From: Patescibacteria group bacterium
GTDB lineage: Bacteria; Patescibacteriota; Minisyncoccia; Phycocordibacterales; Phycocordibacteraceae
Assembly: GCA_004322365.1 (NCBI GenBank)
Contig: SCTS01000007.1
Coordinates: 82,266-122,051, forward strand
Direction: 5' to 3'
Length of the DNA stretch: 39,786 bases
This document shows positions 7,052 to 35,675 of the stretch, piece after piece. The notes under the pieces were generated by a model, which saw only the letters and a list, made by a program, of their open reading frames with translations, ran no database searches and had not been told where the DNA came from. The stretch's first letter is position 1. The number at the start of each line of letters is the position of its first letter. Both the position numbers and the translations under genes were made by a program.

Positions 7052-7744
7052 CTATTTTTTCAACAAGAACGCCTCGAGTAGATCTCCTAAGTTTCCTCCA
7101 CCCATACGAGAGTGGTGCACCATACGCACCAACTCCCGAGAAACTTCTTCACATCCGGCTTCCCCTAACCGCGATGCCGCTTTTTTTGCTTTGGAATAAA
7201 CGAAGGGGTGAATCCCTGTTCCTGCAACGGTTTTTGTTTTGGAAGCCAGCACCATCGCTCGTGCTTGCGATGTAAGCGTCCCGTGGATCTGTTCCGGCGC
7301 TGAACCAGATTCTATGAGTCTCCGATACACGATCCATGAATTTTTCCTGTCCCCTATCGCGAATGCGTCAGTCAGTGCAAATGCATTTGGTGCTGGTTTT
7401 ATCAGCTGTTCTTTATAATCAAACTCTTCAACCTCTGCATTAGTCCTCAAGTTCTTAAGAACTTGAGGACTAATCTCTGGCTGAATAATAATCACCAATG
7501 CGTCGCCTTCGGCTAAATCTTTCGCATGCTCGGCTAGCAGGAGTTTTCCATCATCGTCCTCAAGAGGCCTATCGAGAAGTAGCGTTGTCTTTGGAGCAAA
7601 AAGTCCACGGGCACTACGGTATCGAAGTACGCTCGTAAATAGTTCTCCCCCTTCACCAAAGCGCACAAGTTCAGACCCTTCCGCGAGCTTCATCGCGCGT
7701 GCCTTTGCTTTGACTACATCAGACCCAAGAAGAATGTAGAGCAT
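7052..7744 (-). CDS. holA: DNA polymerase III delta subunit-like (HolA-like)
   Basis: MLYILLGSDVVKAKARAMKLAEG...LLLDRPLEDDDGK...TLTSQARAMVLASK...RLGEAGCEEVSRELVRMVHHSRMG: divergent HolA-type architecture. Confidence 0.6.
   Translation of the reverse strand: MLYILLGSDVVKAKARAMKLAEGSELVRFGEGGELFTSVLRYRSARGLFAPKTTLLLDRPLEDDDGKLLLAEHAKDLAEGDALVIIIQPEISPQVLKNLRTNAEVEEFDYKEQLIKPAPNAFALTDAFAIGDRKNSWIVYRRLIESGSAPEQIHGTLTSQARAMVLASKTKTVAGTGIHPFVYSKAKKAASRLGEAGCEEVSRELVRMVHHSRMGGGNLGDLLEAFLLKK
7439..7474. repeat. Perfect 36-bp palindrome without spacer, inside the holA-like CDS
   Basis: ATTAGTCCTCAAGTTCTT|AAGAACTTGAGGACTAAT is self-complementary. Confidence 0.95.
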
Positions 7745-14941: not shown

Positions 14942-16150
14942 TTATTTATTTTTTATCATTTTGGCAATTCTGCGCTTACCAATTCGTAAGATTTCACCCT
15001 CAACAGGTTCGTTATTCATATCAGCAATCGCTTCCCCTGTCGTAACTGAGGTTACTGCTCCGGCAGAAACCAATCGGCGTAGTTCTGTTCTAGAAGCAAC
15101 AAGGCCTGCGTGTACCAATGCATCCGCATATGTTTGCCCTTCACTGAATAATGCTGGTGTGGCATCCTCTTCAGAAATCTCACCTTTTGAAAAAACGGAA
15201 ACGAATCGCTCCCCTGCTTTTTTACTTTCGACATCACCGTGATACATACGAACAATTTCTAACGCCAGATCAAACTTTGAGTCTCGAGGGCTTTTTGTGA
15301 GAATATTCTTCACTACATTTAACGGTACTCGTGTGCAGTGAACGAAATATGTTTCGATGAGCGAATCAGGAATACTCATTACTTTCCCAAACATATCTTG
15401 AGGTGCATCATTAAGATTAATGGTGTTTCCCCAGCTTGAACTCATCTTTCTTCCATCAGTACCCAAAATGAGCTCGCTCATCACAATGTGTTGCGGAGAT
15501 TGGCCTGCCTTTCCTTGGAGTACTCTGCCTGCAAGCAAATTAAACCTCTGGTCTGTTCCACCAAGCTCTACATCTGCCTTTATGGCAACGCTGTCATACC
15601 CTTGCATTAAAGGGTAGAGCACCTCTCGCAGGGAAACCCTTTTGCCTCCATCCAAGCGGCGCTTAATATTGTCTCGAGATATGAAATCGGCTACAGAAAA
15701 CGCATCAGCTTGATCGCCAATAGCAGAGTAGTCTAACTTCAAAAGCCACTCAGAATTTCTCCGTACCTCCAAAAGATTTGGGTCAAGAATTTTTTTGGCT
15801 TGAGAAACATACTCTGTGAGATTTTTTTCAACATCAGCTCGACTGAGCATTGGGCGTTCACTTTCTTTGTCCGAAGTATCACCTATTACACCCGTTGCAT
15901 CTCCAATAATAAAAACCACCGTGTGCCCTAAATTTTGAAAATCTCGAAGCTTAAGAAGTGCCACCGCGCGTCCAATGTGAATATTTGGGCTTGTAGGGTC
16001 TATTCCGAGCTTGATACGCAGTCGCTCTCCTAACAATAGAAGTTTTCGGAGTGATTCGTCTGAAGGAATTATTTCAACAACACTCCTCGTCAAAAGAGTT
16101 TCTATCTTTTCAGGATCAGTGTTAACTGAGGCTTTGATTTTAAAAAACAT
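14942..16150 (-). CDS. tyrS: Tyrosyl-tRNA synthetase
   Basis: GIDPTSPNIHIGRAVALLKLRDFQNLGH, KMSSSWGN, C-terminal S4-like domain; likely internal start MFFKIKASV. Confidence 0.92.
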   Translation of the reverse strand: MFFKIKASVNTDPEKIETLLTRSVVEIIPSDESLRKLLLLGERLRIKLGIDPTSPNIHIGRAVALLKLRDFQNLGHTVVFIIGDATGVIGDTSDKESERPMLSRADVEKNLTEYVSQAKKILDPNLLEVRRNSEWLLKLDYSAIGDQADAFSVADFISRDNIKRRLDGGKRVSLREVLYPLMQGYDSVAIKADVELGGTDQRFNLLAGRVLQGKAGQSPQHIVMSELILGTDGRKMSSSWGNTINLNDAPQDMFGKVMSIPDSLIETYFVHCTRVPLNVVKNILTKSPRDSKFDLALEIVRMYHGDVESKKAGERFVSVFSKGEISEEDATPALFSEGQTYADALVHAGLVASRTELRRLVSAGAVTSVTTGEAIADMNNEPVEGEILRIGKRRIAKMIKNK

Positions 16151-24721: not shown

Positions 24722-25666
24722 TTAACGAATTGAGCTACAACCAGATTGTGTGCTTAATGGTTGCCCGCAGTTACAAGGAAAGTTACTTGTTATTGTTAGT
24801 GTCGGATTTTGATTCATGAAAGTCGTAAGAGATGCATCACACTGAGAAGAGTTACTGAATGGGCCAGCCTGTCTCGTAATTCTTGCCCCAGTACCATTAG
24901 GAGGTTGTAAAAAGTCACCTCGCCAGCCGTACTGCACAGTTGTTGGTGATGCAGGCTGAGCTCCTCCTGGAGTAGGAGTAGCAGGTGCTGATGGACTTCC
25001 TGCTGGTGTTGCAGGTGAAGTAGGAGGAGTTGCGGAAGCGGGACAGCGTTGCACAGCGTCACCCGTTGTGCACTCGCCCCCAGTTGGTGTTAAGAATGCA
25101 TTATCAAGCCAACATGTTAGGGTACACCCAGCGCTCAATGTTCCATCGTACGCTCGCAATTCAGTTCCGCTCGGCAAAGCGCTTGGGTTAAGGGCACCAG
25201 TGGCTCCTGTTGCTCCGGTACTACCAGGAGGGGGTGTTGCTCTGCTCGAACTGCTTCCCCCTAAACCGCGTATGTTGTCATTGAGCGATTTTATATTGAG
25301 TATTTGGGGGTTGATGACGTTGAGCAGGATATACGATAATAAAAGTAAAACCAATCCTATGGCCGCTCCTTGGAGTCCTTCAATTGCGGCTTTTTTTGTC
25401 CCGATAGCATCGGATGTCATGTAGCGGATACCATCAAAGGTAATCATGACGACCCCAAGAATCGTGGCGACAGCAATGGTAAGTACGAATATTCCATTTA
25501 AGTAATCAGTGAGCGATGTTTCAGCCCCAACAGCGCCCCCAGTAGGGAGAGGTACCGATACAATTGGTTGAAATTGAAACTGAGGTGGAGCTTCAGCATG
25601 GGCCGGAGTTGCCACCACGAAGAGTGAAATGAGAATGAGCGAAAAGATGAAAAGTGTGCGTGGCAT
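24722..25666 (-). CDS. VirB2/TrbC-like pilin family protein with Pro/Thr/Ala-rich C-terminal extension
   Basis: Signal peptide, paired TMs (LNGIFVLTIAVATILGVVMITFDGIRYMTSD...AAIEGLQGAAIGLVLLLLSYILLNVINPQIL), then TPPTSPATPAGSPSAPATPTPGGAQPASP. Confidence 0.65.
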   Translation of the reverse strand: MPRTLFIFSLILISLFVVATPAHAEAPPQFQFQPIVSVPLPTGGAVGAETSLTDYLNGIFVLTIAVATILGVVMITFDGIRYMTSDAIGTKKAAIEGLQGAAIGLVLLLLSYILLNVINPQILNIKSLNDNIRGLGGSSSSRATPPPGSTGATGATGALNPSALPSGTELRAYDGTLSAGCTLTCWLDNAFLTPTGGECTTGDAVQRCPASATPPTSPATPAGSPSAPATPTPGGAQPASPTTVQYGWRGDFLQPPNGTGARITRQAGPFSNSSQCDASLTTFMNQNPTLTITSNFPCNCGQPLSTQSGCSSIR

Positions 25667-26873: not shown

Positions 26874-28685
26874 CTATTCCGATGCTTCCCTCTTTTGTTG
26901 GGCTATTGCAAGAAGTTGAGATGGGTCTGAAGTAATTATTTGGTCTTCAGTGTAGGATGCAATTATTTTTATGGCGACATGTTTGAGCCCCGCGAAGAAA
27001 ATTCCCTCACCCACATCAGATTCAAGCAGAAGATATTTTTCCTCCTCCGTGAGGTTGAATGTTTTTTGTACGGCATCTATGGATGTTGGTGACTGCTTCA
27101 AAAGAATTTGGATTGATGAGTTAGTGAGCATTGGCAGTCCGTAGGGTGACTTTAGGAAGTCCTCAACATCTTGAGTGATGGTAGCGAGACCAAGATAGTA
27201 TTTTCTTCCGCGCTTTGCCATTCCGTAAAGGAATGCAGCGGTATCTTCTGATTTCATCATCCACCATGCCTCATCAATAACAAGAAGTCGTTTGCGCAAA
27301 TCTTTTCTCACCGCATTCCAAATGAAGTGCGTAATGATATACATCGCAATTGTCTTCAACTCATCTTCCATGTTTCGAACTGAGAACGCGACGAACTTTT
27401 TGTTGATGTCGACATTGGTTGGTCGGTTGATAAAGCCAGACCATGTGCCCTTGGTGTATTTTGTAATTCTCTGAACTAAAGACTCGCTTCCTTCCATACC
27501 GGCAAGCACTAGCTCGAAGTCAGAAAGAAGTGGTGGTTCCATGTTGGTGAAATCGTTCGCACCAGTGATGTCTTTGAGTGCGTATGTTTCCGTAATGGCG
27601 CGGTCAATAATCGCATCCTCTTCAGGAGTGAGCCCCCCAAGCATTAAGCGAAATAGTCCCACAAGGTTGATGATGTTTGAGCGGAGAATATCAGCTGGCG
27701 ACTCGTCTTCACGAGCTACTGGCAAGTCGAAAGGATTGATGCGGTTTTCTGATGAGAGTGAAATATTGAAAAATCTTCCACCTACAGCATTTGCAAGATA
27801 TTCGTATTCACTCTCAGGGTCGATGACGATAACCTCTGTGTCGAACATCAGCGTTCGCAAGATTTCAAGTTTTGTACCATATGATTTTCCTGAACCCGAT
27901 TTTGCAAAGGTGACTGAGTTGTAGTTTTCAAGAGAAAATCGATCAAAGAGAATTAATGACGAGTTGTGTCTGTTTATACCGTAGAGAATTCCTTTGTCGC
28001 TCGTAAGGTCGAAGGATATAAATGGGAAGAAGCTTGAGAGTGGAGCAGAATTCATTTTCGAGTTCACCGCTAACTGGTCATCCCCTATTGGTATGACACT
28101 CTTGAATCCTTGTTCTTGCTGGAATAGCGCAGGCTTTATGTAAACGAGTTTTGAGTCAAGGATTGAGCGCATCTCTGCTTCGGTTTTGTCCAATTCTTCT
28201 TGATCTGTGCCGTAAATTGAGATATAGAGACCTACATCAAATACTCGCTCTTGCGCCTGCTGGAGTTGATTTCTAAGTTGCTCAATGTCTTGGTAGGCCG
28301 TGTCGAGCATAGGGTCTCGTACCATGCCTTTTTCTTGACGGGTCATGATTTGGCTCTGCACCTCGGCAACTTTTTTCTGAAACTTGCGGAGAATTGCTGC
28401 TGTGTCTACAGGATGAATGAATATGGAAATATCAAGCACGCGGTCACGGTTAATAATTGGAGCAAACCAAGTGCCTGACAGAAAGCGCGGATATGAAATT
28501 ACATAGAAGGTGCGCACCAGCTTATCGCCCAAGTTCATTTCACGCGGAGTAATCTTTAACGCTGATGGAGCGATGATGTCTGCAAAATCGAGTTTTGCTG
28601 CTTCATAAATATCCTTAGGTAAAAAAGGAGTCAGCGTCTCCTTCTTTTTTCCAGCGTTACCTAAAAATGTATCGAAGATTCCCAT
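26874..28685 (-). CDS. VirB4/TraC-family conjugative ATPase (ATPase domain part)
   Basis: FAKSGSGKSYGTKLEILRTLMFDTEVIVIDPESEYEYLANAVGGRFFNI...LLVIDEAWWMMKSEDTAAFLYGMAKRGRKYYLGLATITQDVEDFL. Confidence 0.93.
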   Translation of the reverse strand: MGIFDTFLGNAGKKKETLTPFLPKDIYEAAKLDFADIIAPSALKITPREMNLGDKLVRTFYVISYPRFLSGTWFAPIINRDRVLDISIFIHPVDTAAILRKFQKKVAEVQSQIMTRQEKGMVRDPMLDTAYQDIEQLRNQLQQAQERVFDVGLYISIYGTDQEELDKTEAEMRSILDSKLVYIKPALFQQEQGFKSVIPIGDDQLAVNSKMNSAPLSSFFPFISFDLTSDKGILYGINRHNSSLILFDRFSLENYNSVTFAKSGSGKSYGTKLEILRTLMFDTEVIVIDPESEYEYLANAVGGRFFNISLSSENRINPFDLPVAREDESPADILRSNIINLVGLFRLMLGGLTPEEDAIIDRAITETYALKDITGANDFTNMEPPLLSDFELVLAGMEGSESLVQRITKYTKGTWSGFINRPTNVDINKKFVAFSVRNMEDELKTIAMYIITHFIWNAVRKDLRKRLLVIDEAWWMMKSEDTAAFLYGMAKRGRKYYLGLATITQDVEDFLKSPYGLPMLTNSSIQILLKQSPTSIDAVQKTFNLTEEEKYLLLESDVGEGIFFAGLKHVAIKIIASYTEDQIITSDPSQLLAIAQQKREASE

Positions 28686-29374: not shown

Positions 29375-29402
29375 CTAGCTTCTAGGTGCTAGGTTTTAGC
29401 TT
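29375..29402. repeat. Heptad-period repeat array on one side of the four-helix-bundle gene
   Basis: CTAGCTT CTAGGTG CTAGGTT TTAGCTT. Confidence 0.9.
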
Positions 29403-29784
29403 TAAGACTCGCAATGATAGCAACGAGCATCTTCGAAACTTCCTGTAGCGCCGCTACTATTTCATTATAGTCGACTTTTTCTCCGTACTCTAAGCGTTTT
29501 GCTATTTCAAGCTGTGTTTCTAGTTCAGATACAGAACCTAAAGCAATGTGCAGGAATTGGGCGAAGTCTTTTCTGGTACTTCTCGATCTGCCCTCCGCTA
29601 TGTTGGAAGAAATTGAAACCGCCGCTCGTCTCATTTGATTAATGAGACCGAATTTCTCTTCAGACGGAAACTTAGAAGTAAGTTTGTAAATTATAATCGC
29701 TAAATCTATCCCCTTCTGCCACACAATAAGGTCTTTATGAGAATAGATTTTAGTCTTATTTGTTTGCATTTTAAAAGCTGGCAC
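29389..29784 (-). CDS. Four-helix-bundle protein (S23 / 23S rRNA intervening-sequence protein family)
   Basis: YSHKDLIVWQKGIDLAIIIYKLTSKFPSEEKFGLINQMRRAAVSISSNIAEGRSRSTRKDFAQFLHIALGSVSELETQLEIAKRL is diagnostic of this family. Start may be internal (MQTNKTKI). Confidence 0.93.
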   Translation of the reverse strand: MPAFKMQTNKTKIYSHKDLIVWQKGIDLAIIIYKLTSKFPSEEKFGLINQMRRAAVSISSNIAEGRSRSTRKDFAQFLHIALGSVSELETQLEIAKRLEYGEKVDYNEIVAALQEVSKMLVAIIASLKAKT

Positions 29785-29809: not shown

Positions 29810-30247
29810 TTATCTCTGTTTCTTGTCCGAATACATACTCTCTTTTATGTCCAAGCTCCACGCTAAGTCTTTAATCTTGTTTGAAGTGGCCGAAGGTGCG
29901 TATTTTGCCGGATCTTCAGCGGGTGTTTGCCCAGGAAGAGTAATTTCGTCAGGGAGGACAGTCTTTGATTGTTTCTTCTCCCAAATGTAGAGTTTTGTGC
30001 GAAAAAGGTATTGGAAGCCAGATTCAAGTGCATTTATGAGAGGGCGGTCGTTGATTTTGTAGAATGCGAGTGCAGCACCTAAAAGTGCAATTGGCCCACC
30101 AATAACTATTGCAAGCCAGTGCGGCATAACAAACCACAGCGCTACGAGGAATCCTCCTCCTCCGACGAGGTATATAAATTGTACGGCAGTTAGAGGACCG
30201 AAAATTTTGTCTTCAACTTCAACGAACTGAGGAACTTGGAATTGCAT
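29810..30247 (-). CDS. PrgI family T4SS-associated membrane protein
   Basis: MQFQVPQFVEVEDKIFGPLTAVQFIYLVGGGGFLVALWFVMP...IGGPIALLGAALAFYKINDRPLINALESGFQYLFRTKLYIWEK. Confidence 0.88.
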   Translation of the reverse strand: MQFQVPQFVEVEDKIFGPLTAVQFIYLVGGGGFLVALWFVMPHWLAIVIGGPIALLGAALAFYKINDRPLINALESGFQYLFRTKLYIWEKKQSKTVLPDEITLPGQTPAEDPAKYAPSATSNKIKDLAWSLDIKESMYSDKKQR

Positions 30248-30260
30248 ACTAGTAAGGGTA

Positions 30261-30294
30261 TAGCGTTTAGTGGTTAGCGTCTAGGGTTTTAAGG
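30261..30294. repeat. Heptad-period repeat array
   Basis: TAGCGTT TAGTGGT TAGCGTC TAGGGTT TTAAGG. Confidence 0.75.
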
Positions 30295-30325
30295 AGAATA
30301 AAAAACTTCCTTAATTTAATGTATG

Positions 30326-30348
30326 TGTGGGATTTCGTAAATCCCACA
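30326..30348. terminator. Hairpin TGTGGGATTT-CGT-AAATCCCACA
   Basis: 10-bp perfect stem, 3-nt loop; one of three similar hairpins in this locus. Confidence 0.55.
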
Positions 30349-30403
30349 TGCATGCGTCAAGAGTCCCCTATTTGAATTGTTTCTATATATGGAAATTTTT
30401 ACC

Positions 30404-30437
30404 ATTCCTATATACCAGTTAACTGGTATATAGGAAT
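30404..30437. repeat. Perfect 34-bp palindrome without spacer
   Basis: ATTCCTATATACCAGTT|AACTGGTATATAGGAAT. Confidence 0.95.
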
Positions 30438-30541
30438 TAACGCTCTGCGGAGGTCCGACATTTGCACTCTCTACATATCCGATGAAGCGTCCTCACCGCT
30501 TCATTCTCGCGACCCGGTTGTTGTTATTAGTAAGTATGTCA

Positions 30542-30955
30542 TTAGAAGGTTATTCTGATGTGCGCCATTTCCCCACGTGAGATCCACCCACCCCCGTTGG
30601 GACCCTTTTCGCTACGTTCTCCAGGGAAGAGTGAAAACTTAAATCCGTTCTCAGTACAAAATTTTTTAATTTTTTTAAATGCTTGGAATTTCTCCATGTC
30701 CACTAATTCCAAATGTCCACTAAGGTTTTGATTAATATGTGTTCCTCCTCTGCTAGCTGCTTCTAGTATCTTTTGGTGTAGATTATGATAAAAGACCTCT
30801 AGTGAGTCTGCGATCTCAGGGTATTTTTTTTCCTGTACCTGCATACGTTCTTCTTCTTTTTCTTTCTCTTCTTTCTCAACACGAAGTCTTATTCTATGTT
30901 CCTCAATCATTCGCTGTAGCGACAAACCTTGTGGGGATTGGGAAGATTTTTCCAT
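30542..30955 (-). CDS. Uncharacterised cassette protein, copy 1 (charged coiled-coil N-terminus, alpha/beta C-terminus)
   Basis: Likely start MEKSSQSP at 30955; ORF-track start at 30991 is a TTG inside a -35-like TTGACA. Paralogous to 31248..31763. Confidence 0.6.
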   Translation of the reverse strand: MEKSSQSPQGLSLQRMIEEHRIRLRVEKEEKEKEEERMQVQEKKYPEIADSLEVFYHNLHQKILEAASRGGTHINQNLSGHLELVDMEKFQAFKKIKKFCTENGFKFSLFPGERSEKGPNGGGWISRGEMAHIRITF

Positions 30956-30963
30956 ACCCAAGC

Positions 30964-30991
30964 ACCCTACGCTGAATATTCTTTTTGTCAA
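30964..30991 (-). promoter_or_regulatory. Promoter-like TTGACA-N16-TAGGGT directly upstream of ATG 30955
   Basis: -35 TTGACA (30986-30991), 16-nt spacer, -10-like TAGGGT (30964-30969); same arrangement as copy 2. Confidence 0.5.
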
Positions 30992-31013
30992 ACAGCAATG
31001 ACAAACACCATCC

Positions 31014-31027
31014 CTAAACGCTAAACC
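31014..31027. repeat. Heptad-period repeat, two units
   Basis: CTAAACG CTAAACC. Confidence 0.5.
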
Positions 31028-31083
31028 CCACCCTCCTACTTCACCCTACTGGTTCTCGGAGATCGCATACAGTCGTCTGAATG

Positions 31084-31117
31084 TAGCCAGTGACTTGATA
31101 TATCAAGTCACTGGCTA
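31084..31117. repeat. Perfect 34-bp palindrome without spacer
   Basis: TAGCCAGTGACTTGATA|TATCAAGTCACTGGCTA. Confidence 0.95.
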
Positions 31118-31171
31118 GTCATATTTTTTAGGTTACTCTTCTTTCCTCTTCGGGTAGTTCCTTAATTTACT

Positions 31172-31196
31172 ACATGTGGGACCTACGAGGTCCCAC
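31172..31196. terminator. Hairpin ATGTGGGACCT-ACG-AGGTCCCACAT
   Basis: 11-bp perfect stem, 3-nt loop. Confidence 0.55.
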
Positions 31197-31247
31197 ATCA
31201 GCATCTCTTACTTCTGCAATCTGTTTTCTACTACGACGAGCGCGCCG

Positions 31248-31763
31248 TTAGAAAAGTATGCTGATAATGTGATTTGTAGGTGGGGTTCGCCATGACGGAA
31301 ATTCCCAGTCAAGATATTCTGTTCTAGAGTTGTCGGAATAGTGCAATTTTAGTCCATACTTGCTACAAAATGTTTTGAGGTCTTTAAATGCCTTCAGGTT
31401 CATCAGTGTATCTTTAGGTAAGTCCCATATGGAAACCTCGGCCATAACTGAATGGTGGCCTTTTTCGGTAGCCTCTAATATATTTTCATATGCGCTTGCT
31501 AAGAAATCTTCTAAGGTGTTAGAGGCGTTTAAACATGCTTCTGCTACTCGACGTTGTTCCTCCTCTTCCTTCTTGCGCTTTTCCTTCCGGTTTTCTTCAT
31601 CTCTTCCCGCACCCCTCGCATCTCTTGTTTTGTCGTAAATGGTTCTACGTTCGCTTATCATTTCTCGTAGCGACCCATCAGGTGGAGATTCATTCCATTC
31701 CGTATTTTTTTGTCCCGAAGCTTTTCTTCCCCAGAACTCGTCCCAAAATGATACTTTTTCCAT
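31248..31763 (-). CDS. Uncharacterised cassette protein, copy 2
   Basis: Likely start MEKVSFWDEF at 31763; shares LKAFKDLKTFCSKYGLKL / FQAFKKIKKFCTENGFKF and a terminal HIxIxF-like strand with copy 1. Confidence 0.6.
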   Translation of the reverse strand: MEKVSFWDEFWGRKASGQKNTEWNESPPDGSLREMISERRTIYDKTRDARGAGRDEENRKEKRKKEEEEQRRVAEACLNASNTLEDFLASAYENILEATEKGHHSVMAEVSIWDLPKDTLMNLKAFKDLKTFCSKYGLKLHYSDNSRTEYLDWEFPSWRTPPTNHIISILF

Positions 31764-31771
31764 ACCCAAGC

Positions 31772-31799
31772 ACTCTACGTTGAGTGTTTGCTTTGTCAA
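31772..31799 (-). promoter_or_regulatory. Promoter-like TTGACA-N16-TAGAGT directly upstream of ATG 31763
   Basis: -35 TTGACA (31794-31799), 16-nt spacer, -10 TAGAGT (31772-31777), then GCTTGGGT-ATGGAAAAA as in copy 1. Confidence 0.55.
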
Positions 31800-31807
31800 A
31801 CAATAAT

Positions 31808-31828
31808 GTTGGGTTTCGTAAACCCAAC
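31808..31828. terminator. Hairpin GTTGGGTTT-CGT-AAACCCAAC
   Basis: 9-bp perfect stem between the stop of 31831..32592 and the copy 2 promoter. Confidence 0.6.
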
Positions 31829-31830
31829 GT

Positions 31831-32592
31831 TTATTCTACTGGTTCGCGGTATGGGTCGACACCTCCTTTGTAGGCTGGCTTCGGTGTTTCAGTTGCTTGT
31901 GGTTTTATTGGTGCAGGAGTTTCAGTCGGCGCAGTCTTTTTAGTTTCTTCTCCTAGTTTTTCTTCTGAGATTGGCGTTACTGGTACACCCGTTTCGTCTG
32001 TTTTATTTTCGTTAGGTACATCTGTCACCAATCCTAGTTTTTCCGCAACAATACTCGATGGAGACAGGTCAGCCGTCTCTTCTGGTGTTACTACAGGAGG
32101 ATTGAGTCGTTCCTGCTCTGCTTTGGCTCTGTCTGCTTCGTCAGGGTCTTTCCAACCATCAATCTTTTCTTTTTCGGCGAGAGCATCCAACGCTTCATCG
32201 GAAAGAAGAAGAGGATCATTTTCTTCAGGTTTTTTCCCTAACTCTTCTTCGTCCCACACAGGCTCTGGTGCCACAATGTTTTCTTGCACGCGTCTTCGGG
32301 CCTCTTTAAAGAGACGGTCGTTTATATCAGCCACTAGTTCGTGAGTCGCTGCATTTGAGAGTTCCGGCAACATTTGATGAAGATTAGTTTCAAGTACTGC
32401 CTCTGACTCTAATCCCATGAGGGTTGCGTTGGCAATGTCACTTACCAAACCTGCCTGATTAAAGTTTAGTTTGTATTTAGCAAATATGCCTCGATATATT
32501 GCAATAAGCTCCTTCGAGTCAAAAAAGTCGTTTACAGGCTTCGTTAGTTTTTTTCTTGCTTCAATATATTCGTCTCGCGTGTAATTTTTCAT
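31831..32592 (-). CDS. Hypothetical T4SS-locus protein with disordered Pro/Glu/Thr-rich tail ending YKGGVDPYREPVE
   Basis: Helical N-terminus, low-complexity C-terminus, short conserved-looking terminal motif. Confidence 0.6.
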   Translation of the reverse strand: MKNYTRDEYIEARKKLTKPVNDFFDSKELIAIYRGIFAKYKLNFNQAGLVSDIANATLMGLESEAVLETNLHQMLPELSNAATHELVADINDRLFKEARRRVQENIVAPEPVWDEEELGKKPEENDPLLLSDEALDALAEKEKIDGWKDPDEADRAKAEQERLNPPVVTPEETADLSPSSIVAEKLGLVTDVPNENKTDETGVPVTPISEEKLGEETKKTAPTETPAPIKPQATETPKPAYKGGVDPYREPVE

Positions 32593-32612: not shown

Positions 32613-35600
32613 TTAAGACCCCTGTTCATTTTCAATTTCATCAACAGATGGTAGTCCAAGTCTCGCACGTTCTTTTGCTACTTCTTCCCAGTCAACTGAA
32701 TAGCTTTTTCCGCTCGGAGTGGTTCGTAGCCAGTTTAGGGTTTCTGGAGATCCATAGATTGCCATGGCCAACGCCTGTTTGTCTTTCCACGCCTGATCTT
32801 TATGGCTCGCCATCAGTTGTTCGGCACTCATGTATTTACCCACAAGGCGAAGACCGTACGCCTCTTGTTTAAGTTCTGAGTCAATTTCCCCGTCGGATTT
32901 ACCTTCAAAGTAGTTTCTACTCTGTTCGTCGGCGCGTTTACGTAACCACGCTGCGTAAAATATCTTACCTTCATTTGTTGCGGTCCCTCCAAGTTTTTCT
33001 AACTTCTCTTCAAAATCTTCATATGAAATTGTACCTTCAGTAATAGGGTCTGTAACCATTGCCATGGCCGCATCTCGTTGAACCTCGCTTGTGACACCCG
33101 CACCTTCAAAAATTTCCATCGCTTCAGTATCCATAGTATCTGCGTCAATAACACGCTTACGTTTGTATGCTCTCATGTCACGTTTCTCACCGTAGGAAAT
33201 TTTGTTACTTTTTTGCAAAGCCTGTCCGACGCTGTTTTTAACTGCATCTATGAAGACTTTATTTTTTCGCATTCCATTTTTAATACCCTCGTCTGATTCT
33301 ATATAATCAATAACCTCTGCGTCGTTTTCATATTTCTTAAATGATTGGTGTAGTTTTACTCGAAACTGATGATATTCATTGCTTCCACGCAACACTTTCC
33401 CTACACGCTTTTCTTTAGACATTTTTTTCCATGCGTCGAGTTCCACAACTTTCTCTTCAAAGTCTCGGGCTTCTCGCATGATGGTGCCCAAACGTACATC
33501 GCGGACCTCATTTTTAATTGTACGACTGATGGAGTCGTCAGCTTTCATTTGTGCCCACTGATCATCTGAGAGCGACATGGCGATTTTAGGTAGAAGAGCA
33601 TGGTCTCTTCGAATTTCTTCCTTCAGTGTGCTGTATGAAATTTCAACAGCAGCGGAACGCATTTGATCCAGAGCGCTTTGGTATGTAATTTTTTCCTTAC
33701 CGGCCTCTCGTTCTTCTTTAGTACGGAGGTCTACATCCTTGCGTAGACGGTCGCGATACTCCCAATCTCCCTCGACACCCCATGTTTTCTTGTCCTTGTC
33801 GTATAACCACAAACGACCCTGCCATCGCCCGTCTTCTTTTGCTCGTGCAAGAAGATCTTGGCGCTCTTTATTATCGAGATCCCCCCAACTTTTTCCTTTG
33901 TATTTTTCATCGTTAGTTGTAAGAGTATCTAGGCTTTTACCTAGCTCTGAATCTTTCCAACGACTGTCTGCCATCACCTCATTTTTTTGCTTATCAGATA
34001 GACTATCGAAGTCTTTTTTAAACTTCTCTTTAGCAATGACATTAGCTAACTCTCGATGTTCTTTATCCTTAGCTTCAACAGCCTCTTTTCTTTCTTTGAC
34101 ATCATTATGTTGATCAACAAGCCCTCCTGCCCCTTTCAGTTTCTTTAAATTTTCTTGCGAAGTCTTTACGTCGCCAAGTCGTGTTTTTCGCTTCTCAGCC
34201 TCCTCAATTCTTGTTAGGTACCCTTCTTTTCCTCCGAATTTTGCGTCCGCCACAGTCTGGAATCCTTTTTGTATACCACGATCAATTCCACTCCCCGCCA
34301 AGAGTTTCGGTATACGTCCATCAGATGCAATCCACTTCTCGTACCCACGCCCTAGACGGTCAGCTAAAAATCCGGCAGTGCCCGTTGCTGCGCTACTTCC
34401 CATGTATTTGAGACTACTTGTGTATACCTTTGGCATCCAGCCGGCAAGTTTGTCGGATGTTTTGTACACATCAGTAAGTCGTTTTGAGGCCTCACTCATG
34501 CCTTTGGCGATTTTGAGCGACTGCAACATGAAAACTGTTGCCACCATGAAGGTGAGCAGACCACCAATGAGATTAGTGTCGTTCCCGCTAAATGCGCCAT
34601 TAGAATTATCAAGAATGGTGAGAGAAAAACCTACGAGAAGAAAGTACACTGGCGCAAAAAATGCCTGACTGAAAAGCGCCTCCCACCACTCTTTTGCGTA
34701 TTTGCTTATTTGAGGAATGGCCATGCCCGCGATACCTATGGGGGATGTGATGAGAATAAGGATGAGTGCAACAAAGCGCCCTAAGAGTAATGATGCAGCA
34801 GACAGAAATACGAATATTGTTACTGCAATAAGTACGACGCTTAAAATATCTTGCAAAACTCCCATCCATTGGCTGTCTTGTTCTCCGCCTCTAAGACCCT
34901 CAACCCTACCTTGTAGATACTCTGCTAAGTTTTTATGTGGACTTTGGATAACTCGCTCAAAACGATCAACAATGGTACAGGCCTCTGCACATCTTTCAGT
35001 TTGGATAGTTGCTCTATAAATAGTGGTCGCAAGAAAATTTGAGGAATCTATAATCGCGCCTGCGAAAAAGAAACTGAAGTTTACTAAGAGAGCCGCAATA
35101 ATGAGGCGCACTAAAAGTTTTTGGGCGTTTATAGTTGCAAGATGCAGAATAGTGCCAATGGCAGTTGCAATAAGTCCACCAATGATGGCGAGGTTTGCAA
35201 GGTCACGCATAATGCGCCACGCGATTTGTATACCCACAGCGTCTGAGGAGGTAACAAAGCTACCCATATTCACAACAAGTTGTTCTACGAAAAAATTCAA
35301 AAATAACCCTACAAAATAAAGAATAACTTCCGCTAGCTTTAGAAGCATTGAAGTAAATACACGGATGATGCTCGCGAGGCAGTCATCTGCTTTCGCAGCT
35401 CCAAATATTGGAATAGCTGCCGATGCGCAATCGATAGCGACATCTAGACCTCTTTGAACTCCAGGGGAGTTTGCTATTGCCGCACCAGCTGCACCTTGCT
35501 GTGCTGAGTAGGTGGCTTCTGCAGTTTGCTGAGCTGCCGCAGCTTCAGGCGCAACAGTTGCGAGGCCACCAGCCGCCCCGCTTTCTCCTGCTTCTCCAGC

Positions 35601-35675
35601 GAATGCGAGATGTGAGGGCACCACAAACCCAGCGAGAGTAATGGTGAGCAAAAGAATTAAAAAAACTTTCTTCAT
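32613..35675 (-). CDS. VirB6/TrbL-like polytopic membrane protein with ~600-aa soluble C-terminal extension
   Basis: Signal peptide, multiple TM helices in residues ~100-400, then long charged helical region to residue 1020. Confidence 0.7.
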   Translation of the reverse strand: MKKVFLILLLTITLAGFVVPSHLAFAGEAGESGAAGGLATVAPEAAAAQQTAEATYSAQQGAAGAAIANSPGVQRGLDVAIDCASAAIPIFGAAKADDCLASIIRVFTSMLLKLAEVILYFVGLFLNFFVEQLVVNMGSFVTSSDAVGIQIAWRIMRDLANLAIIGGLIATAIGTILHLATINAQKLLVRLIIAALLVNFSFFFAGAIIDSSNFLATTIYRATIQTERCAEACTIVDRFERVIQSPHKNLAEYLQGRVEGLRGGEQDSQWMGVLQDILSVVLIAVTIFVFLSAASLLLGRFVALILILITSPIGIAGMAIPQISKYAKEWWEALFSQAFFAPVYFLLVGFSLTILDNSNGAFSGNDTNLIGGLLTFMVATVFMLQSLKIAKGMSEASKRLTDVYKTSDKLAGWMPKVYTSSLKYMGSSAATGTAGFLADRLGRGYEKWIASDGRIPKLLAGSGIDRGIQKGFQTVADAKFGGKEGYLTRIEEAEKRKTRLGDVKTSQENLKKLKGAGGLVDQHNDVKERKEAVEAKDKEHRELANVIAKEKFKKDFDSLSDKQKNEVMADSRWKDSELGKSLDTLTTNDEKYKGKSWGDLDNKERQDLLARAKEDGRWQGRLWLYDKDKKTWGVEGDWEYRDRLRKDVDLRTKEEREAGKEKITYQSALDQMRSAAVEISYSTLKEEIRRDHALLPKIAMSLSDDQWAQMKADDSISRTIKNEVRDVRLGTIMREARDFEEKVVELDAWKKMSKEKRVGKVLRGSNEYHQFRVKLHQSFKKYENDAEVIDYIESDEGIKNGMRKNKVFIDAVKNSVGQALQKSNKISYGEKRDMRAYKRKRVIDADTMDTEAMEIFEGAGVTSEVQRDAAMAMVTDPITEGTISYEDFEEKLEKLGGTATNEGKIFYAAWLRKRADEQSRNYFEGKSDGEIDSELKQEAYGLRLVGKYMSAEQLMASHKDQAWKDKQALAMAIYGSPETLNWLRTTPSGKSYSVDWEEVAKERARLGLPSVDEIENEQGS

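Follow-up and report, generated by a model that had tools for sequence, protein, structure and literature searches.

Our analysis shows that P1 and P2, two proteins encoded next to each other in one slot of a T4SS locus, are tandem paralogues of an orphan family that evolve fast, and we take it, with moderate confidence, that they are accessory proteins of the T4SS. They mark the end of a hypervariable block in a locus that is otherwise frozen between two related genomes. So sharply bounded a block points to the T4SS parts most likely to touch something variable, and it is the part of the locus worth following.

The T4SS locus and the P1/P2 slot

The window, i.e. the whole stretch of 39,786 nucleotides that was analysed, corresponds to bases 82266-122051 of contig 6 of the 787-kb genome (G000) of an ultra-small bacterium and contains dnaA, dnaN and yidC together with the T4SS locus. 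The locus genes lie on the minus strand: T4SS_pilin (24722-25666), VirB4 (26874-28685), a TrsD-like gene without a Pfam match, named by its position and PMC12102498 (28688-29359), PrgI/VirB3 (PrgI below; 29810-30247), the gene of a 253-aa protein with a conserved DPYREPxE C-terminus and a hypervariable N-terminal half (31831-32592), and the TrbL/VirB6-like gene (32613-35675). In minus-strand reading order the 253-aa gene is followed by P2 and P1, and the slot ends at PrgI on the P1 side, so that the placement inside the T4SS locus given in the earlier note was right. The passages of PMC12102498 on the chromosomal MPF-FATA-like T4SS of Patescibacteria describe the same VirB4, TrsD-like, PrgI/VirB3, T4SS_pilin and TrbL/VirB6-like genes near dnaA and make no reference to P1/P2 or to hypervariability of the VirB6 tail; a study cited there reported that the T4SS is essential to one Saccharimonadia strain for its epibiotic growth. 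P1/P2 are present in only two of the ten genomes of the genus, the window genome and G005 (Parcubacteria bacterium Greene0714_7), which served for comparison, and thus are not a constant part of related T4SS loci.

The slot between the 253-aa gene and PrgI is empty in G008, G001 and G002, is occupied by a 23S-IVP gene in G006 and G003, and in G007 contains part of the 253-aa gene for a second time, so that P1/P2 are an insertion. The copy in G007 (L058:1208-1558, 116 aa) repeats the N-terminal domain of the 253-aa protein, which makes it a further case of tandem duplication in this slot. The 23S-rRNA-IVP/four-helix-bundle gene of the T4SS locus (29389-29784, minus strand, and L027:13107-13502) shifts position between species, lying in the PrgI-TrsD gap in the window genome and before PrgI in G006 and G003; in G005 it is bordered by CTAGGTGCTAG-type inverted repeats. 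In G009 (L056) PrgI and TrsD come after the 253-aa gene, apparently in the opposite orientation, owing either to inversion of this segment or to faulty assembly.

P1 and P2 are paralogous orphan proteins

P1 and P2 each correspond to an uninterrupted minus-strand ORF. P2 (31248-31763, ATG at 31763) encodes 171 aa and is the copy closest to the 253-aa gene, while P1 (30542-30955, ATG at 30955) encodes 137 aa. They had been noted earlier as related uncharacterised proteins, and both parts of this description hold. BLASTP aligned them with E = 9e-7. Because coiled coils can mislead, the C-terminal domains were also scored alone, which resulted in a score of 79 against 23.5 ± 4.0 for shuffled sequences, with 0 of 1000 shuffles equalling it. 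P1 and P2 are therefore true paralogues. AlphaFold predicted the same topology for both proteins, with a long helix, a second helix and a C-terminal β-α-β-β domain, in models built on four sequences only and with mean pLDDT of 74 and 79.

Searches of Pfam, NCBIfam, PHROGs and PADLOC with P1/P2 resulted in no convincing family, the T4SS families of Pfam and NCBIfam included, and the weak matches were mostly to coiled coils. ZapG-like, PDC-S49 and phrog_7296 matches were rejected, as they lie mainly within the coiled coil. The single weak PADLOC match (E 0.0026, 14.6 bits) covers P1 residues 17-100, largely coiled coil, and is absent from the other three copies. A PDB sequence search gave no significant match, nor did a Foldseek search of the models against PDB give a significant fold match (best E 0.13 for P2 and 0.054 for P1). 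By eye no signal peptide or membrane segment is obvious in P1/P2, which are therefore predicted to be cytosolic.

Among 196 relatives, clear homologues of P1/P2 were recovered in G005 alone. A profile of the four proteins searched against 397 genomes of the order was convincing only in the window genome and G005, with one marginal match in G159 (E 0.002). In 387 genomes of the class the profile gave 11 weak matches besides G000 and G005 (E 0.002-0.05), and these were rejected, as about 19 were expected by chance. The G159 match and the first weak BLAST matches were also discarded, being mostly coiled coil or otherwise marginal. Neither tblastn of P2 against named phages nor tblastn of the G005 copy A against named plasmids found a match. 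The family thus looks like a lineage-restricted orphan, found in two genomes.

Promoter-like elements and leaderless initiation

That each copy has its own promoter-like element was confirmed. For P2 the element (31764-31799, minus strand) consists of TTGACA (31794-31799), a 16-bp spacer and TAGAGT (31772-31777), from which 8 nt lead to the ATG, so that it looks leaderless. The P1 element (30956-30991, minus strand) has TTGACA at 30986-30991, again a 16-bp spacer, TAGGGT at 30964-30969 and 8 nt to the ATG. A 54-bp block spanning promoter and start is 83 % identical between the two, and the pattern TTGACA-N16-TAG(A/G)GT-N8-ATG occurs exactly twice in the 787-kb genome. The alternative of reading the region upstream in frame as part of the protein (LTKRIFSVGCLG-M) was rejected because the changes in it are mostly non-synonymous and what is kept are the TTGACA and TAGNGT boxes. 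The possibility of a toxin-antitoxin pair was dropped as well, because the two genes are paralogous and have separate promoters.

We compared this spacing with 160 ATG-initiated ORFs of at least 150 aa from sampled stretches of the genome (the window and L076-L085). TANNNT peaks 6-8 nt before the ATG, with 44 matches over these three positions against approximately 4-5 per position elsewhere. For Shine-Dalgarno-like words, the same ORFs have no such peak before the ATG. Leaderless initiation thus seems to be common in this genome, and the arrangement at P1 and P2 looks like its ordinary leaderless style. Each copy would accordingly make its own leaderless mRNA, a reading that fits the promoter spacing, with the -10 box ending 8 nt from the ATG, and from it a protein would be produced that is cytosolic and combines a long coiled-coil helix with a small α/β domain at the C-terminus.

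The hypervariable block and the role of P1/P2

Compared with G005, the T4SS proteins of the window genome are strongly conserved at the amino acid level (VirB4 99 %, PrgI 97 %, TrsD-like 97 %, a 246-aa protein 98 %, pilin 92 %), most neighbours falling within 90-99 %. In contrast, identity is 45 % for P1 and its counterpart A, 53 % for P2 and its counterpart B and 56 % for the 253-aa protein, in line with the earlier suggestion that the proteins are diversifying. In TrbL identity is 97-100 % over residues 61-420 and drops abruptly to 11-34 % from about residue 420 on, leaving the C-terminal ~600 aa (32613-34415, minus strand) unrelated in sequence between the orthologues. Neither tail matches the tail of the other genome at E <= 1e-6, and elsewhere there are marginal matches at most. 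A chimeric assembly is unlikely, given that both genomes have an unbroken TrbL ORF.

The dN/dS ratio is 0.65 for P1/A and 0.36 for P2/B against 0.01-0.13 in conserved neighbours, values that come from few codons, gapped alignments and one pair of genomes. The TrbL tail and the N-terminus of the 253-aa protein show high synonymous change, as after a replacement, and P1/P2 a level near the locus background, which argues against P1/P2 having been exchanged as a whole for genes of a distant donor. We read this as two processes, with allele replacement in the region of the TrbL tail and fast protein evolution in place for P1/P2.

In the explanation we favour, P1/P2 would be accessory partners of the T4SS, such as an adaptor or a regulator, and, less certainly still, they would change along with the hypervariable soluble C-terminus of the TrbL/VirB6-like protein and with the 253-aa protein. 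What ties them to the T4SS is their position, and since the family occurs in two genomes, its covariation with TrbL concerns one pair. P1/P2 may instead be loosely constrained and unconnected to TrbL, their synonymous change being near background unlike that of the TrbL tail. The main rival to the accessory-partner reading sees weakly constrained lineage-specific duplicates without a T4SS function, sitting in an intergenic slot that tolerates insertions; the IVP genes, the partial 253-aa duplicate and the empty slots of the other genomes fit it, as does the ratio of P1/A. However, all four copies have kept a full ORF and an intact promoter-start block despite 45-53 % protein identity, and third codon positions in P1/P2 change more than first and second positions, with dN/dS below 1, so that we regard passengers of this kind as possible but rather unlikely.

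A more far-reaching version of the accessory reading would make the stretch from TrbL residue ~420 to P1 an exchangeable specificity module of the T4SS, in which closely related species exchange the soluble tail wholesale and the 253-aa protein, P1 and P2 are retuned or reshuffled with it, perhaps to match different hosts; we consider this doubtful. The abrupt switch in TrbL, the mutually unmatched tails and the diverged small genes downstream, in a locus otherwise conserved at 92-99 %, could also indicate an effector/immunity or polymorphic-toxin module, exchanged as a block between strains, with P1/P2 as immunity proteins or small effectors matched to the variable TrbL C-terminus. Immunity genes typically are small, lie downstream and occur in tandem copies. 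Such a role, proposed in the earlier note, gained no support from the searches: no Pfam domain, and no toxin, nuclease or immunity domain, was detected in either TrbL tail, and for P1/P2 there was no toxin, immunity or defence domain above chance in Pfam, PHROGs and PADLOC. Moreover, in other members of the genus P1/P2 are absent and the TrbL tail is of another kind, and P1 and P2 have promoters of their own. We therefore find this module improbable. P1/P2 offer a small, testable protein pair.

Duplication history

In G005, too, the slot is occupied by two copies, A followed by B. Protein scores match P1 to A and P2 to B, hence the order is swapped between the species. P1 and A share their 3' flank (score 52 against 14.5 ± 2.3 shuffled), and the 3' flank similarity of P2 and B, whose protein identity is 52-57 %, is weak, being equalled by 131 of 2000 shuffles. 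Copy B of G005 is preceded by a repeat of the 253-aa gene's end (72 nt at 88 %). The window retains just 14 nt of this repeat, a remnant of the 3' end of the gene (its REPV tail) between P2 and P1 (31046-31059, minus strand; 93 % to 31836-31849), which we interpret as the scar of a tandem duplication.

It had been claimed that the noncoding parts were duplicated with the genes; this is demonstrable for the promoter/start block and for the tail of the 253-aa gene that lies upstream, and fails for the palindromes and hairpins (see below). The duplication unit comprised the 253-aa tail, the promoter belonging to the unit and the gene itself. Because it includes a piece of the adjacent gene, it arose by tandem duplication in place, and the orthologue pairs together with the tail repeat in G005 date this before the split of the two species, which differ in the order of the units. 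The swap suggests recombination inside the tandem array rather than mobility of a cassette, and a change from A-B to B-A would follow if the array was duplicated and then trimmed by recombination.

The 12-mer TTCCTTAATTTA, which adjoins a REP-like hairpin at both sites, is the longest word common to the two 3' flanks and probably a shared remnant, as only 8 of 2000 shuffles reach 12. Its first copy is at 30307-30318, as originally given; the second lies at 31158-31169 (C6:113423 is window position 31158) and not at 31156-31167.

Hairpins and palindromes as dispersed repeats

The palindrome and hairpin that had been assigned to each copy exist. One 34-bp perfect palindrome, with the core AGTTAACT, is at 30404-30437 and the other, with the core TGATATATCA, at 31084-31117; REP-like hairpins are found at 30326-30348 (TGTGGGATTTCGTAAATCCCACA) and 31174-31198 (ATGTGGGACCTACGAGGTCCCACAT), and a divergent one upstream of the P2 promoter at 31805-31831 (AATGTTGGGTTTCGTAAACCCAACGTT, with TGTTGGGTTTCGTAAACCCAAC at 31807-31828). 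What did not stand is that they are parts of a gene unit. Both kinds of element are dispersed genome-wide, and the hairpins are palindromes of 20-40 bp that are mostly extragenic. The two 34-bp palindromes are unrelated in sequence and belong to separate families, whose members have conserved cores and covarying arms: the first has a relative at L084:4368-4402, directly next to a GAACGAC hairpin and 91 % identical over 35 bp, and the second has relatives at L078:15098-15122 (CAGTGACTTGATATCAAGTCACTG at 15099-15122) and L083:9471-9506. Relatives of the divergent hairpin are located at L078:6792-6815 and L085:9400-9422 and, in G005, at L090:7567-7593. The TGTGGGA...TCCCACA hairpin occurs seven times in the genome, hairpins of all types, with terminators counted in, reach about 21 per 100 kb of sampled sequence, and hairpins with arms of at least 10 number 13 here against 0-1 in shuffled windows.

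Around copies A and B of G005 there are no TGTGGGA hairpins and no 34-bp palindromes, so those of the window were probably inserted later, after the duplication. The different order of palindrome and hairpin at the two copies, correctly noted before, fits such independent insertion and not parts of a cassette. An autonomous mobile cassette, in which gene, promoter, palindrome and hairpin move as one, was suggested by promoter, gene, hairpin and TTCCTTAATTTA each being present twice in the window. This reading is largely refuted and in our view very improbable, given the bare G005 copies, the lack of further gene copies elsewhere in the genome, the unrelated palindromes from separate dispersed families and the fragment of the adjacent gene in the duplicated unit. 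The hairpins and palindromes are better described as dispersed repeat families, of the RAYT/REP type in the hairpins and perhaps also in the palindromes.

RAYT-linked palindromes are present in this reduced 0.8-Mb genome. It carries two RAYT-like Y1_Tnp genes, which match NCBIfam REP_Tyr_transpos with E 2.7e-8 and 5.5e-7 and stay below its cut-off. The C7 RAYT sits between a GAACGAC hairpin and ATGTGGGACATACGATGTCCCACAT, an TGTGGGAC-type hairpin, and the C5 RAYT between two perfect GTGCAACCTCCGGAGGTTGCAC palindromes. Two of the repeat families thus flank the RAYT genes, among them the hairpin type at 30326-30348, which lies 3' of one gene, and neither gene is flanked by relatives of the two 34-bp palindromes. 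REP elements have been defined by a conserved unpaired GT(A/G)G head beside an imperfect palindrome and usually exceed 100 copies per genome (PMC2817692). The elements here resemble them in being palindromes of 23-36 bp, mostly intergenic, with covarying arms, which flank both Y1_Tnp genes, and in the GT(A/G)G of the TGTGGGAC and TGTAGGG types. They differ in that GTGG/GTAG occurs solely within the paired stem of a perfect palindrome, copy numbers are low (seven for the TGTGGGA type), some elements lie in frame within genes, and the RAYTs fall below the NCBIfam equivalog cut-off. As two classical features of REPs, the free head and the high copy number, are lacking, we call the elements REP-like only.

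REP-like hairpins or palindromes in frame were noticed in a TrmD ORF (L082:10438-10462), a Dus ORF (L078:6791-6819) and a RAYT (L084:8946-8974), and within a holA-like ORF at window positions 7439-7474. Rickettsia palindromic elements are palindromic repeats inserted in frame in conserved genes. The in-frame repeats in trmD, and possibly in dus and holA, are similar to them but belong to another lineage. Dispersed intergenic repeats of a degenerate GTTTAGNG/TTAGNG type were also present at 30256-30290, 31013-31030, L083:16472-16521 and L085:14037-14073. The TrmD hairpin coincides with a 7-residue insertion relative to a solved bacterial TrmD.
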